Part shown: in pieces, positions 26,627-37,330 of the stretch
Position numbering within the stretch: the first letter of the stretch is position 1
Layout of the letters: each line of letters begins with the position of its first letter
Origin: Bacteroidota bacterium
GTDB taxonomy: Bacteria; Bacteroidota; JABWAT01
Direction: 5' to 3'
DNA length: 39,342 nucleotides
Assembly: GCA_017303995.1 (NCBI GenBank)
Contig: JAFLBE010000042.1
Coordinates: forward strand, 1 to 39,342
The notes under the pieces: model-generated
Database searches by the model: none
Seen by the model: only the letters and a program-made list of their open reading frames with translations
What the model was told of the DNA's origin: nothing
Program-made: the position numbers and the translations under genes

Positions 26627-26956
26627 TTAGCTCAAAATACGCTTTTGCAATAGGGTTTGCATGTCACGCCGACCGTCAGAAATTAAAATGATGTAGACCT
26701 TCAAATCCTGAACTTTGTAAATAATCCGGTATGGTTTAAAAAATAATTCACGGTAATCAAGAATTCCAAGAACTGCCAACTCGTTTGGGTAAACACCTCT
26801 AAGCGGAAATTCCCGCAGCGTCTCCAGTTTTTTTTCAATAGAAGAAAGAACGTATTCTGCAGCGTTTTTGCTGTCGTTATCAACCAGGAAAGAAAAAATT
26901 TCTTCCAGATCTTTTTGAGCTGAAACAGTTAAAAAGACCTGAAAAATCGTACTCAT
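26627..26956 (-). CDS. ParE/RelE-superfamily toxin
   Basis: The 109-residue protein matches ParE-type toxins: an N-terminal strand VFLTVSAQKDLEEIFSFLVDNDSKNAAEYVLSSIEKKLETLREFPLRGVYPNEL, then the core strands GILDYRELFFKPYRIIYKVQDLKVYIILISDGRRDMQTLLQKRIL. The YRIIYKV and I-x-DGRRDMQ endings are family hallmarks. ParE toxins act on DNA gyrase and RelE toxins cleave mRNA on ribosomes; the sequence favours the ParE branch but does not decide. The start overlaps the antitoxin stop by 4 bases, as usual for such pairs. A repeat directly adjoins its stop codon. Confidence 0.88.
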   Translation of the reverse strand: MSTIFQVFLTVSAQKDLEEIFSFLVDNDSKNAAEYVLSSIEKKLETLREFPLRGVYPNELAVLGILDYRELFFKPYRIIYKVQDLKVYIILISDGRRDMQTLLQKRILS

Positions 26957-27225
26957 TTTCTGATTTTTTCCCTGATAGATTGAAGACTTTGTTCAAGAGG
27001 AATCACCGCTCCGGCTGCAATTTCCTGATTCCCAATGGCAAGAATCTTTAGAAGTGCCATTGTTTCCTGGTTTTGCTCCCATGACCTGATGTCCTGAAGT
27101 ACGGCTTTTGCTTCGCCATTCTGGGTTATGACGATTGATTCACCGTTTTCACCAAGGGTTCTGATCATTTCAGCTGCATGTGCCTTCAGGTAACTGATTG
27201 GTTTTATTTGTTCGGAAAGTTTCAT
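26953..27225 (-). CDS. Phd/YefM-family antitoxin
   Basis: The 90-residue protein begins KLSEQIKPISYLKAHAAEMIRTLGENGESIVITQNGEAKAVLQDIRSWEQ, the Phd/YefM DNA-binding fold, in which the N-terminal strand-helix dimerises on an operator and the C-terminal tail (GAVIPLEQSLQSIREKIRK) wraps the toxin. It is the first gene of the pair and overlaps the toxin gene by 4 bases. GGAG lies 11 bases before the ATG. The upstream palindrome over the -10 box suggests autoregulation. Confidence 0.9.
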   Translation of the reverse strand: MKLSEQIKPISYLKAHAAEMIRTLGENGESIVITQNGEAKAVLQDIRSWEQNQETMALLKILAIGNQEIAAGAVIPLEQSLQSIREKIRK

Positions 27226-29760: not shown

Positions 29761-30004
29761 ATATAACTTGGGAATAGAGTGAGAATTTTCAAGGGATCAG
29801 GAATCATTCCTAAACATCATGGACGATGAAAAAACCCTTTTATTTTTCGATAAATATAAGAAACATCTAATTTATTGTTTCGCCAGGTGAAAAGCAAAAA
29901 ATAATAATATAGAATCATGCTTGGGTTTGAAACCTTATTGGGTTGCCTTTTTGGTTCCCTCTTCCCTTTTCCCGATATTTGCCACGGTTAAAAAACGGAC
30001 TTGC

Positions 30005-31534
30005 ATGTTTAAACGGTTTACCTTTGTTTTTCTGGTGGTGATTCTTCTTCCTGTCATTTTCTATGCAGGTTGGGTGATTAATTCACTGAATACCAGTGAA
30101 AAAATACTTTCACAGGTTTACAATCAGCAGTTAAACGCAGCACTGATCACCCTGAATCAATATGCATGGAACCAGATTGATGAATGGGCAACTTCGGTAG
30201 ACCAGCTTTCAGGAACCAATATTGACACCCTGCAGGATTTTCTGACCCGGAATCCATCCCTTCGTTTAATTTTGACAACCGACAGTCTGCTTTCCTCGAT
30301 CCGCCTGGTTGGGGCTTCTGCTGTTCATTCTGTTTTTCCTACCGGACTCAGAGACAGTCTTCAGGCAAAAAAGGATAGACTCAGTCAACTCAACCGTTTT
30401 ATGGCCGGCAATAATTACCGGAAGTTTGAGCCGTTTACACTTCCTTCCGTAAATCCGATTGAAAAAATGGTCGTAGTTGTTTTTTCCTCCCGGAATGATC
30501 CTGACCGTTTGCTTGGTTTCGCAGTTGACGCAGGCCGGTTTACCCGTGAAGTAATGAGGTCAAGACTCAATGAGGTTGCGGGTGACGAGTTTATCATTGG
30601 TGTTCTGGCCGGAAATCCAGAACAGATTGTCTATGCAACTCAGGAAATGGAAAATCTTGAATTCAAAGTGACCAAGCCGTTGTGGATTTTGCCAGAATAC
30701 CGGATCGGCATCAGGCTTAAAGGTGCGACTGCCGACGAAATTATTGAAAACCGGCTGGTGCTTAATATGGTTTTAATTGGCATTTTGTCTATTGTATTGG
30801 TCATCGGTGTCGTTTATATCTATCGGTTGGTCAGGCGTGAAGTTGATCTCGTCCGCCTGAAAACAGATTTTGTTTCGAATGTTTCACACGAGTTGCGAAC
30901 CCCGCTGGCTCTCATCAGAATGTATGCTGAAACCCTCGAAATGAACCGGGTTGTGAGTGATGAAAAGCGACAGAATTATTACCGCATTATTCTTTCTGAA
31001 ACTGACCGGTTAGGCCGGCTGATCAACAATATTTTAAACTTTTCACGAATTGAATCTGTCAGGAATCCGTACCAACTTTCACCTCTGGAAGTGAATCCGC
31101 TTGTGGAAAGTGTGGTTTCGCTCTATGAAGTCCAGTTTGAATCTCAGGGATTTGACTGGAAATTTGAAAAGGAAGAAGTGGCCCAGATTATGGCAGATAA
31201 GGAAGCCATTTTTGAAGCCATTCATAACCTTTTAGACAATGCAGTTAAGTATTCGGGTGAACGAAAAGTCATCAGAATAAAGACATTAAAACGCCAGGGG
31301 GCAGTCGGAATATCAGTGAGCGACAGTGGTTCTGGCATTGATCAGAAGTACCACGGCATGATATTTGATAAGTTCTTCAGGGTATCAACGGGATTGGTTC
31401 ACAATACCAAAGGGTCGGGGCTGGGTCTTGCCCTGGTTCAGCACATTGTGAAAAGTCACGGCGGAACCATTGAACTAAAGAGCTCACCAGGTGAAGGTTC
31501 AATCTTCATTTTATGGTTTCCTGCACGAAATTAG
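30005..31534 (+). CDS. Sensor histidine kinase with large periplasmic domain
   Basis: This 509-residue membrane protein has TM1 (about 5-26, FTFVFLVVILLPVIFYAGWVI), a long extracytoplasmic domain (about 27-250) with no recognised name, TM2 (about 251-272, VLNMVLIGILSIVLVIGVVYIY), and a cytoplasmic HisKA domain with the phospho-acceptor His295 in FVSNVSHELRTPLAL. The HATPase domain has HNLLDNAVKYS (N box), SDSGSGID (G1) and KGSGLGLALVQHIVKSHGG (G2). It probably phosphorylates the regulator at 31618-32301. The frame is open to a TTG at 29921, but ATG 30005 gives the natural N-terminus MFKRFTF and is chosen. Confidence 0.93.
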   Translation: MFKRFTFVFLVVILLPVIFYAGWVINSLNTSEKILSQVYNQQLNAALITLNQYAWNQIDEWATSVDQLSGTNIDTLQDFLTRNPSLRLILTTDSLLSSIRLVGASAVHSVFPTGLRDSLQAKKDRLSQLNRFMAGNNYRKFEPFTLPSVNPIEKMVVVVFSSRNDPDRLLGFAVDAGRFTREVMRSRLNEVAGDEFIIGVLAGNPEQIVYATQEMENLEFKVTKPLWILPEYRIGIRLKGATADEIIENRLVLNMVLIGILSIVLVIGVVYIYRLVRREVDLVRLKTDFVSNVSHELRTPLALIRMYAETLEMNRVVSDEKRQNYYRIILSETDRLGRLINNILNFSRIESVRNPYQLSPLEVNPLVESVVSLYEVQFESQGFDWKFEKEEVAQIMADKEAIFEAIHNLLDNAVKYSGERKVIRIKTLKRQGAVGISVSDSGSGIDQKYHGMIFDKFFRVSTGLVHNTKGSGLGLALVQHIVKSHGGTIELKSSPGEGSIFILWFPARN

Positions 31535-31617: not shown

Positions 31618-32301
31618 ATGCAAAAAATTCTTATTGTTGAAGATGAAATTCAACTCGCATTCGGGTTGAAAGATAACCTGGAACTTGAAGGTTACCAGGT
31701 TGAGGTTGCCAATAATGGTCTCGAAGGATATGAACAGCTCACCAAAAGCCAGTTTGATCTGGTCCTTTTAGATGTGATGCTTCCAGGCATGTCTGGTTTT
31801 GAAATTCTGAAACGAATCAGACAACTGGGAAATGTGACTCCGGTTATCATGGTCACCGCCAAGTCAGATGAGATTGACAAAGTTCTCGGGCTTGAACTGG
31901 GTGCAGATGATTACATGACCAAACCCTTTAGTTTGCGTGAATTGTTTGCCCGTGTAAAGGCCGTTCTCCGTCGTCAGTCTGGTTCACCTATTTCAGTCAC
32001 GACACCGGTCACTATTGGTATTCTTACCGTTGATTTTGCCAATTATACAGCAAACCACAATGGTGAGTCGGTTGCCATGACCCCGAAAGAAATAGAAGTT
32101 TTGAAATTTTTGTGGGAGCGGAAGAATCAGACCGTCAGCCGTGATGAACTGCTTACTCAGGTTTGGGGATATGACGAAACCATCAGCTCAAGAACCGTTG
32201 ATAACTTCATTCTGAAAATCCGCCAGAAAATGGAAGAAGATTCTGCACACCCGAAACATATCATTACCATTCATGGTGTTGGGTATAAGCTGATTCCTTG
32301 A
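31618..32301 (+). CDS. OmpR/PhoB-family response regulator
   Basis: The 227-residue protein has an N-terminal receiver domain with acidic Asp9 and Glu10, phospho-acceptor Asp52 in VLLDVMLPGMSG, Thr80 in VIMVTAKS and Lys102 in YMTKPFSLREL. The C-terminal winged-helix DNA-binding domain contains MTPKEIEVLKFLWERKNQTVSRDELLTQVWGY and RTVDNFILKIRQKMEEDSAHPKHIITIHGVGYKLIP, typical of OmpR-type regulators. Its gene follows the sensor kinase in the same direction. Its target genes are not visible; the divergent secreted-protein genes at 27489-29760 are the nearest candidates. Confidence 0.96.
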   Translation: MQKILIVEDEIQLAFGLKDNLELEGYQVEVANNGLEGYEQLTKSQFDLVLLDVMLPGMSGFEILKRIRQLGNVTPVIMVTAKSDEIDKVLGLELGADDYMTKPFSLRELFARVKAVLRRQSGSPISVTTPVTIGILTVDFANYTANHNGESVAMTPKEIEVLKFLWERKNQTVSRDELLTQVWGYDETISSRTVDNFILKIRQKMEEDSAHPKHIITIHGVGYKLIP

Positions 32302-32313
32302 TTTAAAAGCTAT

Positions 32314-32395
32314 TAGCTATTGGCTGTTAGCTGTTAGGTAAACCAATTCTAAAGGCAAATAAGAATTCAACCTAATAGCCAACAGCTAACAGCTA
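32314..32395. repeat. Long imperfect inverted repeat between convergent genes
   Basis: Arms of 26 bases (32314-32339 and 32370-32395) pair with four mismatches around a 30-base spacer. Each arm is itself built of repeated TAGCTGTT/TAGCTATT units. It sits just after the response regulator and runs into the stop of the convergent receptor kinase gene, so it can end transcription from both sides. Confidence 0.75.
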
Positions 32396-35300
32396 TCTAC
32401 CTTCCTTCCCTTCCAGCCATCTCTCCAATTCTTCACCAAAATCTTTTGCTGAACCAAAACGGTCTTCGGGTTGTTTCGCAATTGATTTCATGATAATTGC
32501 TTCAAGGTCTGGGTCAACTTTGTCATTGTAAACTGAAACCGGCTCAGGTTTCTGGTTGAAAATATTGTAGACAAACGCCATATCATTATCACCCGTGACA
32601 GGTAACGTTCCCCCCGAGAGCAATTCATACCCGATTACCCCAAGCGAGTAAACATCTGACGATTCATCCAGCGGCATTCCAACGGCTTGCTGGGGAGACA
32701 TGTAGGCCAGTGTTCCCACCGATGTCCCAAGTCGTGTCATCGTAGCAAAGACGTTGGTTTTTGCCAATCCCAGATCCATAATTTTCACTTCACCAGACTT
32801 CGTTACCATAATATTTTCAGTTTTCAGATCACGGTGAAAAATCCCCGAGTTGTGCATATACTGTATCGCATCGGCAAGTGTTTTCAGCCAGAGCACAATC
32901 TGCTCAACCGAAACCTCACGGGCAAGCCAGTTACGAAGATTCTCACCATCCACATAATCCATAGTCAGATAACGTGATGAACCGGTTGAACCCTGACCAT
33001 AGATTTTCACGATGGAAGGGTGTTCGAGCTGACTGCCTGCTGCAACTTCACGCTGAAACCTGATCACCCCTTCTGCTGTATCGAAGGTTCTGGTGTGATA
33101 CACTTTCAAAGCCAGCATTTTTTTATCAGACGGACTAAAAACCTGAAATACTTTTCCCGATGAACCTTCCCCAATAAGCCGTTCAATACGGTATGGACCA
33201 ATATAATTTGTGCGGATATATCTCTTCCAGGCAAAGGAAAGTCCGATTCCGGACACGGGGAAAAGAGTGGCAAAAAGAGTAGGGATCAGCCAATTTTTCC
33301 AGGGTTCAAGCTGAATGGTAAAGTAAAATCCGAATAGATAAAGGAGCGAGAATCCAATCCACCAGACCGGCCATTTATATATTGATTTCAAATCCCGGCT
33401 TTTAAGTAACCTAAAAATCCCGAAAATAAGGATGCTATGAAACCAGAGTTTTGCAAGTTCTTCCCACCAAATAAAATAGCGAACCAACTTGGTCACACCA
33501 CGGAAAAATAAATAGACTGAATGAAGAGGTTCAGAAAACTCGGTAACAGTTACCAGTGAGCCGGCAGTTACTTCATTTATCCATCTTTCTGATCCTGAAG
33601 GAAAAACAACCCGAACGGAAACCTTGTCCAAATTTCGGGTTGAAAGGATGACTGGCAACGAAAGAGAAGTTGCCGCAGCTGATCCGTTAAACCCAACCGT
33701 TGTCTGACTTAGCGGATTTCCCGCAACTACTGTTCCTGACGGATAAATTTCAATCTGGCAGGTCTGTCCGTCTGCAACTGAAGAAGATCCTTCAGGGCGG
33801 ATTCGGATGAATTTTTCTCTGGAAGCCAGATTGGCAAAAAGTTTGGTTGATTTTCTTCCGAATTCACTTCCCTGGGAAATGAGAATATCAGTTGCGCCGT
33901 CGCCATTGTAATCAGCCGTAAATATATTTCCTTCCGGACTCAGTCCGTTGGTTTCCCGGGTGTCATTAAAGCCCAAAGAGTCGCTGATGAGCAGGTGATT
34001 ACTAATAAATAAATCGGGTTTGCCGTCAAGGTTCACGTCTGCGGCTGAATTGAATCCGTTAGGGAATCCCGGGTAAACAGGTGCAGAACCGAGGTAAACC
34101 GGGTTGTTGTAAATAAGTAAACTGTCTCCTGATATCCGGCCGAAACGATCAGAAATATTACGGTCAGGAAGGAAAATGGAGGGAACTGAATCAGCCGGAT
34201 TTTGAAAAACGACCGAAGCGGTCGTGAGTAGTTTTGGATAGGCCGTCAGAGTGGTGAAGGTTAGTGTTTTTGGATCAAGAACCCCAAGCCAGGAGCCAGA
34301 AACGGCAGAAGTAATAAGCTGATTCCATTTTCCATCAGGCCGGAGAATGAAATTGGTGCTCATCAGCCGGTGTTCTTTTTTAGAATTCAGAAAGGAATAA
34401 TCAGGAAGTGGTGAACGTGAAAACTGTCCGATTCCATTATTCAGGAAAACGATGAGTCCGTTATCCCAATCAGATTTTATCAGGTCATTGTCACCATCGA
34501 GGTCAATGTCAACAAATTGAAGCGAGTGACCCCAGTATATCTGCGAAAAAACCGGTTGATAACTGCCAAGACCCGACCAATCTGTAACATCAGTGAATTT
34601 AGCGTTTCCAGTATTTCGCCAGATCGTCAGTTGGTGATTATCGGTTCTGACTGTTACCAAATCCTGATCGTTATCATTGTCAATATCACCAGAAACAGCG
34701 GTGAGAGATCCGTTGCTGCTTTTTAGAAGGCCCGATTCAAAAGTCACATCAGAAAAAATGCCGGTTCCGTTATTTTTCATTAGCAAATCTGGCTGACCCA
34801 TTTCGCCGGTGAGCAACAGGTCTGGGGCATGATCACCATCCGCATCGAAGAAAAGTCCGCCACGGGACGTTGCAGTAATGTTGGCTTCGGCTGAACTTTC
34901 ACGGAAGGAAATTTTTCCCCGTTTGGATGACCTGTAAATTCCATCTGACGTGAGGAAAATGAGTTTATCGTCTGTGGAGCCTGGAATTTCACTGACTGCA
35001 TTCAATCCGGATTTTAACTGACCGGCATCCAGAACAGGCAGCCAGGAGTTGTCAGATTTCAGCCGGAAGATAGTGTTGTTTTGAGTGATAAAAAGTGAAC
35101 CGGATTTTGTCTTTCGGATCGCATTTATCCTTAAACCCGGAAATGGAGTTGGAATCAGGCTGGAAACTTTTCCATCAAAACTGACCACCTCACCCTGATC
35201 GGTTGCAAGAAAGAGTGTGCCGTTTTCATCTGCATCCATACTGATGATGGTGGTTTTAATTGGAAGCGGAATCAGTTTGCCGAAAGCATCATCAAACCGG

Positions 35301-35896
35301 ATGAATAGTCCGTTCCGGCCGGCAACATAAACAAGGTTGGGGCCGATGGCTTTAACAACATTAAAATCTTTGTCGAAATCACCATCGCCATCCTTCCAGA
35401 TTACGGGTGAATGAACCGGCACCCAGGATTTGTTTTTATACCTGAGAATTGCACTTTTTTGTCCGACCAGCCAGATGTCATTTTCAGACCAGCCATCGAT
35501 AGATTTGATGATTGTGTAGTCGATTTCATCCCATTTAATCAGCGGGATGTCAATGCGGTTCCAGTTTTGTCCGTTGAAGTGATAGAAAATGTATTTCCAA
35601 TTGTCGTAATGGACAAGATGGTGAAGACCAAAAACAGAAGTTGGCGAAAAGACTTTAAGAATGGGTGAATCAGAATAGGGGAAAGCCATTGAGACTTTCC
35701 ATTTGCCGTTTTTGAATTGGTAAAATCCGCCTGCCGTTTCAAATCCGCCACCACCGGCAGATGCAAATCCGTTGAGAGAATCCAGCATAATGATTTGATT
35801 GCCATTGGCAATTCGTTGCTGGAAAAGCGGAATCAGGTCCTGGGCCTGAACCTGAAAAGCAAAAAGGAGAATTGAGAAAAGGAGTTTGAATTTCAT
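32393..35896 (-). CDS. Receptor-like membrane Ser/Thr kinase with FG-GAP/VCBS sensor and ASPIC/UnbV-like domain
   Basis: This 1167-residue protein has a signal peptide (KFKLLFSILLFAFQVQA, 1-18). An extracytoplasmic part of about 780 residues starts with WD/two-component-propeller-like repeats (about 20-330). It then carries FG-GAP/VCBS calcium loops DADGDHAPD (351-359), DIDNDNDQD (404-412), DIDLDGDND (463-471), DVNLDGKPD (620-628) and DYNGDGATD (662-670), and an ASPIC/UnbV-like domain (about 693-787, ending in VRVVFPSGSERWINEV). Three TM helices (about 817-832, 842-862, 869-889) put the C-terminus inside. The kinase (about 902-1160) is intact: GEGSSGKVF, Lys931, HRDLKTEN (Asp1023, Asn1028), DLG (Asp1041), GTLAYMSPQQ. 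The frame extends to 35932, but ATG 35896 starts the signal peptide. The gene is monocistronic. Confidence 0.93.
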   Translation of the reverse strand: MKFKLLFSILLFAFQVQAQDLIPLFQQRIANGNQIIMLDSLNGFASAGGGGFETAGGFYQFKNGKWKVSMAFPYSDSPILKVFSPTSVFGLHHLVHYDNWKYIFYHFNGQNWNRIDIPLIKWDEIDYTIIKSIDGWSENDIWLVGQKSAILRYKNKSWVPVHSPVIWKDGDGDFDKDFNVVKAIGPNLVYVAGRNGLFIRFDDAFGKLIPLPIKTTIISMDADENGTLFLATDQGEVVSFDGKVSSLIPTPFPGLRINAIRKTKSGSLFITQNNTIFRLKSDNSWLPVLDAGQLKSGLNAVSEIPGSTDDKLIFLTSDGIYRSSKRGKISFRESSAEANITATSRGGLFFDADGDHAPDLLLTGEMGQPDLLMKNNGTGIFSDVTFESGLLKSSNGSLTAVSGDIDNDNDQDLVTVRTDNHQLTIWRNTGNAKFTDVTDWSGLGSYQPVFSQIYWGHSLQFVDIDLDGDNDLIKSDWDNGLIVFLNNGIGQFSRSPLPDYSFLNSKKEHRLMSTNFILRPDGKWNQLITSAVSGSWLGVLDPKTLTFTTLTAYPKLLTTASVVFQNPADSVPSIFLPDRNISDRFGRISGDSLLIYNNPVYLGSAPVYPGFPNGFNSAADVNLDGKPDLFISNHLLISDSLGFNDTRETNGLSPEGNIFTADYNGDGATDILISQGSEFGRKSTKLFANLASREKFIRIRPEGSSSVADGQTCQIEIYPSGTVVAGNPLSQTTVGFNGSAAATSLSLPVILSTRNLDKVSVRVVFPSGSERWINEVTAGSLVTVTEFSEPLHSVYLFFRGVTKLVRYFIWWEELAKLWFHSILIFGIFRLLKSRDLKSIYKWPVWWIGFSLLYLFGFYFTIQLEPWKNWLIPTLFATLFPVSGIGLSFAWKRYIRTNYIGPYRIERLIGEGSSGKVFQVFSPSDKKMLALKVYHTRTFDTAEGVIRFQREVAAGSQLEHPSIVKIYGQGSTGSSRYLTMDYVDGENLRNWLAREVSVEQIVLWLKTLADAIQYMHNSGIFHRDLKTENIMVTKSGEVKIMDLGLAKTNVFATMTRLGTSVGTLAYMSPQQAVGMPLDESSDVYSLGVIGYELLSGGTLPVTGDNDMAFVYNIFNQKPEPVSVYNDKVDPDLEAIIMKSIAKQPEDRFGSAKDFGEELERWLEGKEGR

Positions 35897-36045: not shown

Positions 36046-36463
36046 TTTCTACCAAGAGGCCACACCGCTGGTGCTACTGGGGGAGATTGGAATTGTTGGA
36101 TTTTTACCAAGAGGTCGCACCGCTGGTGCTACAGGGGAAATTGGAATTGTTGGATTTCTACCGAGAGGCCGCACCGCTGGTGCTACAGGGGAAAAATTGG
36201 CTTTGGGATTTCTACCGAGAGGCCGCACCGCTGGTGCTACAGGGGAAAATTGGCTTTGGGATTTTTACCAAGAGGCCGCACCGCTGGTGCTACAGGGGAA
36301 ATTGGAATTGTTGGATTTCTACCGAGAGGCCGCACCGCTGGTGCTACAGGGGAAAAATTGGCTTTGGGATTTCTACCAAGAGGTCGCACCGCTGGTGCTA
36401 CAGGGGGAGATTGGAATTGTTGGATTTCTACCGAGAGGCCGCACCGCTGGTGCTACAGGGGGA
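36046..36463 (+). repeat. REP-type palindromic repeat array, 8 units of about 54 bp
   Basis: Units start at about 36046, 36101, 36155, 36209, 36262, 36316, 36370 and 36425 and are 53-55 bases long. Each has TTTCTACCRAGAGGYCGC, then GCACC-GCT-GGTGC (a 5-bp hairpin), CTACAGGGG and a variable spacer of two kinds (GGAATTGTTGGA or GGCTTTGGGA). Read on the other strand, GTAG abuts the hairpin, as in REP elements. Because the period is close to a multiple of 3 and contains no stop, all three + frames stay open across the array; they are not genes. The rest of 35897-36614 shows no coding signal. Confidence 0.9.
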
Positions 36464-36614: not shown

Positions 36615-37076
36615 TCAATCTACCCAGTCAAATAAATATTTTGGATTATATTCAATATCAAATAATTCCAGTAGCTTAATATATTCATCATGAAATGTGT
36701 TTTTTTGGTGATGATCAGGTTGATTTCGAATATAAGTTATTACGTTCTTCACCTGACTTTTTGAATAACTAAATGCCCCATAACCCTCCTGCCATGAAAA
36801 TTTTCCCGGCATCCAGCTATTATTATTTATGAAATTGGATGAACTGCTTTTAATATCCCTGACCAAATCAGAAAGAGATTGATTGGGGTTTATTCCTACA
36901 AGAAAATGAAGATGATCAGGCATACAAAATATGGCCAAAGGTTTATGATTTCTGACCAAAGTCATGCCAACAATGTAGCGTTCTAATTCTTCTCTGTGTT
37001 TTTCAGCAATGAGATTATTTCTTCCCTGAACGGTAAAAACAATATGAATGAACAATTGGGTGTATGTATTGGCCAT
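36615..37076 (-). CDS. IS200/RAYT-family Y1 (HUH) transposase
   Basis: The 153-residue single-domain protein shows the HUH motif MPDHLHFLVGI (His55, His57) for metal binding and a helix with the likely catalytic Tyr115 in VKNVITYIRNQPDHHQKNTFHDEY. A basic N-terminus (MANTYTQLFIHIVFTVQGRNN) matches the family start. Such enzymes cut and join single-stranded DNA at hairpins next to short guide sequences; RAYT members are linked to REP elements. The frame is intact, so it may be active. It is flanked on both sides by palindromic repeats of the same sequence family, which supports the RAYT reading, although the tail resembles IS200/IS605 TnpA of Bacteroidota. Confidence 0.92.
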   Translation of the reverse strand: MANTYTQLFIHIVFTVQGRNNLIAEKHREELERYIVGMTLVRNHKPLAIFCMPDHLHFLVGINPNQSLSDLVRDIKSSSSNFINNNSWMPGKFSWQEGYGAFSYSKSQVKNVITYIRNQPDHHQKNTFHDEYIKLLELFDIEYNPKYLFDWVD

Positions 37077-37180: not shown

Positions 37181-37330
37181 CTTCTACCAAGAGGCCGCAC
37201 CGCTGGTGCTACTGGTGGAGATTGGAATTGTTGGATTTCTACCGAGAGGCCACACCGCTGGTGCTACTGGGGGAAACTGGGATTTTGGATTTCTACCAAG
37301 AGGCCGAACCACTGTTGCTACTGGGGGAAA
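37181..37330 (+). repeat. REP-type array, right block of 3 units
   Basis: Units start at about 37181, 37235 and 37290 with a period of 54-55 bases, in the same orientation as the left array. The first two keep the GCACC/GGTGC or CACC/GGTG stem. The last (GAACC-ACT-GTTGC) has lost base pairs and looks degenerate. Apart from these repeats, the stretch 37077-37407 shows only one further short repeat and no gene. Confidence 0.85.

Follow-up and report, generated by a model that had tools for sequence, protein, structure and literature searches.

A sensor-first receptor Ser/Thr kinase predicted in Bacteroidota, with an ectodomain and membrane unit also found on histidine kinases

We describe a gene for a predicted receptor Ser/Thr kinase on a contig of a Bacteroidota bacterium (GenBank assembly GCA_017303995.1, contig JAFLBE010000042.1). 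The whole stretch analysed, 39,342 nucleotides, is referred to as the window; the gene lies at 32393-35896(-). We put the probability at about 0.7 that its product is a transmembrane receptor whose kinase phosphorylates a transcription regulator, with a sigma54 output in the majority of relatives from other classes. Sequence comparison shows how the receptor is built, that this layout is conserved, which gene accompanies it in the operons of relatives, and that outputs are exchanged on a homologous receptor body; topology, ligand sensing, the mode of activation, and phosphorylation of the activator are proposals.

Architecture and conservation of the receptor

The gene is a single unbroken open reading frame of 1167 amino acids, with its ATG at 35896. 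From the N- to the C-terminus, it encodes a signal peptide, a YCF48-like propeller, an FG-GAP region, an UnbV/ASPIC-like end, 3 transmembrane (TM) helices, and a PknB-type kinase. The parts, all on the minus strand, are as follows.

35840..35896 (-): signal peptide, residues 1-19; sequence and hydropathy, of the signal-peptidase-I type in the window protein
34922..35839 (-): first propeller, YCF48/PSII_BNR-like, residues 20-325; PSII_BNR, YCF48 profile match, AlphaFold2 (AF2) crop with Foldseek
33827..34921 (-): FG-GAP/VCBS region, residues 326-690; FG-GAP_3, CRTAC1 profile match, motif count
33527..33826 (-): UnbV/ASPIC-like beta domain, residues 691-790; UnbV_ASPIC in homologues, end just past the FPSG motif
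33410..33475 (-): TM helix 1, residues ~808-829; homologue hydropathy and AF2 helix 789-832, Lys/Arg-rich loop after it
33314..33370 (-): TM helix 2, residues ~843-861; hydropathy and AF2 helix 836-862
33233..33289 (-): TM helix 3, residues ~870-888; hydropathy and AF2 helix 870-897
32453..33193 (-): PknB-type Ser/Thr kinase domain, residues 902-1148; Pkinase, PknB structures, invariant residues

The C-terminal domain is a predicted Hanks/PknB-type Ser/Thr kinase, one of 2 Pkinase matches in the whole genome of the window organism. The Pfam match spans residues 902-1148 (E 2.9e-46), and among solved structures the closest by sequence is PknB (E 6e-42). The catalytic core is complete, from the G-loop (GEGSSG 909) and the VAIK-type Lys (ALK 929-931) through the C-helix Glu to the HRD (HRDLKTEN 1021), DFG/DLG (MDLG 1040), and APE-like (YMSPQ 1065) motifs; its catalytic residues are invariant across 12 homologues in the family alignment, and the activation loop is Thr-rich (TMTRLGTSVGT). 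The complete Hanks kinase of the original prediction was thus found, as was its place after sensor and TM helices, an order opposite to that of the usual PknB-type kinases. A proposed likeness to eukaryotic receptor kinases applies to topology only, the kinase itself being PknB-like. The NF033483 model for PASTA/PknB receptor kinases, a group with the reverse domain order of kinase, a single TM helix, and PASTA repeats at the C-terminus, covers the kinase part only (242.9 bits versus a 450-bit cut-off), and PASTA repeats have no Pfam match in the window protein.

Profile searches support an ectodomain of the double-propeller sensor type, in which a YCF48-like propeller is followed by a CRTAC1-like FG-GAP region and an UnbV-like sandwich. 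The original prediction had seen a single integrin-like FG-GAP ectodomain. The FG-GAP part stands, with FG-GAP_3 (PF13517) matching in 4 stretches (E 1.4e-15), and the first third (~20-325) is a separate YCF48-type propeller that had been missed. PSII_BNR matches this propeller in 8 of 12 homologues, and its profile finds YCF48 among solved structures (E 3e-13). An AF2 crop of residues 20-334, with a mean predicted local distance difference test score (pLDDT) of 53 and values of ~80 in part of the second half, retrieved YCF48 first in Foldseek, with the propeller of PknD (1rwi) and sensor ectodomains from Bacteroides also among the matches. The whole-ectodomain profile matches CRTAC1 (9etn) at E 3e-20, YCF48 at E ~1e-11, and integrin alpha-4 weakly at E 0.004; by profile, the nearest solved relative is CRTAC1 rather than integrin, and the AF2 model does not resolve the number of blades, which is seven in an integrin alpha propeller.

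At least 5 calcium-type loops had been predicted, and 6 of the form D-x-[DN]-x-[DN] are present: 1 in the first propeller (residue 169) and 5 in the FG-GAP/VCBS region (351, 404, 463, 620, and 662). The expectation is 0.25, and none of 2000 shuffles reached 6. The first propeller also carries 2 family-invariant motifs, YSDxP (74-78) and WDxxDY (122-127), which may form a binding site. Calcium and glycans, named in the original prediction, are candidate ligands. The UnbV/ASPIC-like end is divergent. Of 12 family members, 5 have a match to UnbV_ASPIC (PF07593), the best at E 6.4e-7, as do homologues with other outputs. The window protein alone gives no significant Pfam match to it; support for the predicted UnbV-type end comes from the family and the profile searches.

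The predicted signal peptide is present and ends ...FQVQA|QD. Many homologues of other families have a lipobox-like Cys at the N-terminus, so these proteins probably bear a lipid at the N-terminus, with the TM helices anchoring the C-terminal part. The 3 predicted hydrophobic helices are corroborated by the hydropathy of homologues: only helices 2 and 3 exceed the cutoff in the window protein and all 3 do so in most homologues. Three TM helices occur in most members of all output classes, and a Lys/Arg-rich loop often follows the first. A low-confidence AF2 model of the full receptor, built on an alignment of the window protein with its related-locus proteins, places helices at 789-832, 836-862, and 870-897. 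Foldseek ranks the ectodomains of BT4673 and BT4663, double-propeller sensors of Bacteroides, highest for this model; these matches are only suggestive, since the mean pLDDT of the model is 45. Taken as a topology, this order would place the sensor in the periplasm, the 3 helices in the inner membrane, and the kinase in the cytoplasm.

The architecture recurs in related genomes. A full-length orthologue is present in all 4 species of the window's class, the other 3 matching the window protein at 84, 63, and 44% overall. The receptor protein is carried by 13 of 394 sampled genomes of the phylum, from families f1, f4, f7, and f32; a profile search of another class yielded 14 kinase-type members, one of them interrupted by a contig end, and added family f28. 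Every full-length homologue holds all parts within one gene. That a frameshift or an assembly error might have joined a kinase gene to one for a secreted FG-GAP protein is suggested by nothing but the unusual domain order, and this reading is dismissed with near certainty: single genes occur in independent genomes of 5 families (f1, f4, f7, f28, and f32), with alignment continuous across the junction, and homologues split by a frameshift, as such a fusion would entail, did not occur. Separately, 1 locus (L091, G577:C45) has a single in-frame TGA in the ectodomain frame of an otherwise intact gene, either a pseudogene or a sequencing error.

Exchange of outputs on a homologous receptor body

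The ectodomain and TM helices are not confined to Ser/Thr kinases. At 10 loci (L095-L103 and L116), a homologous ectodomain and TM part is joined to a HisKA_3/HATPase-type histidine kinase, and each of the HisKA_3-type genes adjoins one for a regulator with a receiver, similar to that of L096, which a scan placed in the NarL/FixJ type. The HisKA_3-type kinases of L034 and L096 were scanned with Pfam and the remaining loci assigned by sequence; L034, whose record bears the name Chlorobiaceae bacterium BC.017, encodes a protein identical to that of L095. At 8 further loci (L105, L111-L115, L117, and L118), a HATPase kinase follows the homologous ectodomain and TM part. An NtrC-type regulator is encoded directly after the receptor in all 7 of these loci with downstream DNA (L111-L115, L117, and L118), identified by Pfam scans in L111, L113, and L117 and by size and sequence start in the others. 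In L105, the start of a receiver protein is visible as the next gene. A HisKA-type domain was not found by Pfam in the 3 scanned NtrC-coupled receptor kinases, which possibly have an undescribed type of dimerization and histidine phosphotransfer domain. Several kinases of the 7 loci carry a conserved FSHGEWALKNLNSL-like motif where the phosphoacceptor helix is expected.

L034 had been part of the search profile (A2), so the comparisons were redone with separate profiles for the Ser/Thr-kinase type (A4) and the HisKA_3 type (A5). In hhalign, the ectodomain and TM parts of the two align over nearly their full length with a probability of 100 (E 2e-77); the TM part alone reaches 96.4 (E 1e-9), and the first propeller alone 99.3. 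The Ser/Thr-kinase type also aligns with the NtrC-coupled group (probability 100, E 1e-64), and the TM parts of the 2 histidine-kinase groups align with each other at 96.7. Receptors of different types coexist: 3 genomes (G030, G115, and G262) each hold a Ser/Thr-kinase-type and an NtrC-coupled receptor, and another (G325) has a receptor of the Ser/Thr-kinase type alongside one of the HisKA_3 type.

An exchange in the opposite direction occurs in family f26, where 2 proteins (L150:993-3764(-) and L151:1279-4095(-)) combine a Reg_prop propeller and Y_Y_Y ectodomain, of the kind known from Bacteroides hybrid sensors, with a C-terminal Ser/Thr kinase and have 1 apparent TM helix. In the kinase tree, the f26 kinases cluster with those of the receptor family (support 100/98).

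The ectodomain with its 3 TM helices appears to be a chassis on which different outputs can be mounted, and its occurrence with histidine kinases suggests a self-contained module for sensing and transmission. It may, at somewhat less than even odds, have been swapped in evolution between His-Asp and Ser/Thr phosphorylation. A GAF-sigma54 activator lacking a receiver would then have taken the place of an NtrC regulator with one as partner, and the kinase would switch this activator on by phosphorylating Ser/Thr residues of its N-terminal region directly: in effect, a Ser/Thr "two-component system" feeding sigma54.

The sigma54 activator, the proposed pathway, and its alternatives

Among the 13 members from other classes than the window's, 9 (L063, L064, L066-L071, and L094; in L094 only the N-terminal part is visible) have a gene for a receiver-less GAF-sigma54 activator directly after the receptor gene. 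The operonic activator, of ~577 amino acids, consists of a conserved ~95-residue N-terminal region, a GAF domain, a sigma54-interaction AAA+ domain (Sigma54_activat), and a Fis helix-turn-helix (HTH), and has no receiver. The 7 other copies that are fully or largely visible are 53-89% identical to that of L063. This recurrent adjacency suggests a pathway from receptor kinase to sigma54 activator to transcription.

In the pathway that we propose, the exported propeller regions and UnbV-like domain would act as a periplasmic sensor, anchored in the inner membrane by the 3 TM helices. A stimulus on the ectodomain would pass through the three-helix unit, probably via altered dimer geometry, and the kinase would be switched on by autophosphorylation of its activation loop and phosphorylate a transcription regulator. 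For most relatives from other classes, the GAF-sigma54 activator of the next gene is the likely target, which would lead to sigma54-dependent transcription; gene order is what points to this phosphorylation.

In the window organism, the best homologue of the activator (L075, on contig C73) is the best candidate for a partner of the receptor. We do not claim it as an orthologue of the operonic activators, since it is unlinked to the receptor, has 38-40% identity, and lacks the N-terminal FVSxxSxxFMxLS-like pattern of those activators.

Several observations weigh against the proposed pathway and the history suggested for it. No sigma54 activator lies beside the receptor in any of the 4 members of the window's class, and because of this we only infer the sigma54 step for the window's own lineage. 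Outside that class, none adjoins the receptor in L065, L090, and L091 (genus g26) or appears in the downstream DNA seen at L092. Direct comparison of the TM parts of the Ser/Thr-kinase type and the NtrC-coupled group is marginal (probability 67). The AF2 models are weak, both full-length and for the N-terminal crop. In addition, the 4 kinases of the window's class form a long branch between the group of receptor and f26 kinases and the N-terminal-kinase proteins; where they fall among the receptor kinases changes with the choice of root, and with this long branch the kinase-domain tree does not establish a single origin of the fusion.

As a separate observation, the receptors of L065, L090, and L091 lie near ammonium-transporter-like genes, with a glnB-like gene as well in L065, as judged by eye from protein starts.

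In the window, 2 genes are convergent with the receptor gene.

29921..31534 (+): sensor histidine kinase (HisKA and HATPase)
31618..32301 (+): OmpR-type response regulator

These genes bear on another reading, which is unlikely: that the targets of the kinase lie broadly in the envelope, or in this pair of histidine kinase and OmpR regulator through Ser/Thr cross-talk onto the response regulator, and do not include a sigma54 activator. The convergent pair is retained beside the receptor in 3 of the 4 class members, from 2 genera (the window, L073, and L072), and Ser/Thr kinases are known to regulate OmpR-type regulators such as CovR and WalR (PMC4601284). However, convergent genes are not co-transcribed with the receptor, and the linkage is missing in L074 despite a conserved receptor. 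No such linkage was seen in the other families; their receptor genes commonly have the sigma54 activator next to them.

Less probable still is that the protein is an adhesin or structural surface protein, with an ectodomain for attachment and a kinase tail as a minor addition. Kinase-less proteins with FG-GAP and CRTAC1-like propellers are indeed common in the phylum, and L074 has an FG-GAP/fn3/laminin-G protein of 2495 amino acids. The invariance of the catalytic residues in 12 homologues and the anchoring of the protein by 3 TM helices speak against this reading, and the presence of homologous ectodomains on histidine kinases with cognate-looking regulators favours a role in sensing.

Other features of the window accompany the gene. 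A Phd/YefM antitoxin and ParE toxin pair lies at 26627-27225(-), and L073, the sister species, has the same pair near its receptor. A Y1/IS200-like transposase gene (36615-37076(-)) lies a short way upstream of the receptor gene, between two arrays of a 54-55-bp repeat at 36046-36461 and 37182-37330. Each repeat unit holds the palindrome GCACCGCTGGTGC, present in 10 copies in the window with at most 1 mismatch (0.04 expected); the 18-bp form of the repeat occurs 6 times in the genome, always at the array site in the window. Arrays and transposase together look like a repetitive extragenic palindromic (REP) array with its RAYT-type transposase.

Comparison with known receptor systems

Eukaryotic-like Ser/Thr kinases of bacteria have the kinase at the N-terminus and the sensor usually at the C-terminus, and the propeller of PknD is an osmosensor (PMC4601284). 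The receptor resembles Mycobacterium tuberculosis PknD (kinase, TM helix, NHL propeller) in linking a PknB-like kinase through the membrane to a beta-propeller sensor, and differs in its reversed order, its 3 TM helices rather than 1, its 2 propeller regions, and its UnbV-like domain.

The hybrid two-component systems of Bacteroides (BT4663, BT4673, and BT3049, with a double propeller and Y_Y_Y) likewise set a large periplasmic sensor of double propeller and beta-sandwich before a C-terminal kinase. Unlike them, the receptor has propellers from other sequence families, with no Pfam match to Reg_prop or Y_Y_Y in the window protein, 3 TM helices, and a Ser/Thr rather than a His-Asp output; in place of their chain of histidine kinase, receiver, and AraC HTH, it ends in a Ser/Thr kinase.

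CRTAC1/LOTUS and other FG-GAP proteins with UnbV/ASPIC share the succession of FG-GAP propeller and UnbV/ASPIC domain, but not the TM-kinase part. We found no description in the open literature of a receptor kinase with FG-GAP and UnbV (ASPIC). Like the NtrC family of sigma54 activators (bacterial enhancer-binding proteins), the operon partner found in relatives combines an AAA+ domain for sigma54 interaction with a Fis HTH; in contrast to that family, it has a GAF domain and a ~95-residue N-terminal region in place of the receiver and is paired with a Ser/Thr rather than a histidine kinase.

CHASE2-type receptors combine an N-terminal ectodomain and about 3 TM helices with exchangeable outputs, including Ser/Thr and histidine kinases. 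They are thus alike in reusing a three-TM chassis with differing cytoplasmic outputs, and their ectodomain is unrelated so far as Pfam shows, with no CHASE2 match in the window protein.

Receptor Ser/Thr kinases are known as a kind, and the shared chassis and the sigma54 partner are the parts most worth following. For few bacterial receptor Ser/Thr kinases is the cognate transcription factor known, and most are laid out with the kinase first. A sensor-first family, often beside a dedicated sigma54 activator, would provide a simple pathway from envelope stimulus through Ser/Thr phosphorylation to the promoter. Since homologous ectodomains and TM helices drive NarL- and NtrC-coupled histidine kinases, chimeras of natural relatives could show whether one and the same transmembrane signal serves either kinase chemistry.

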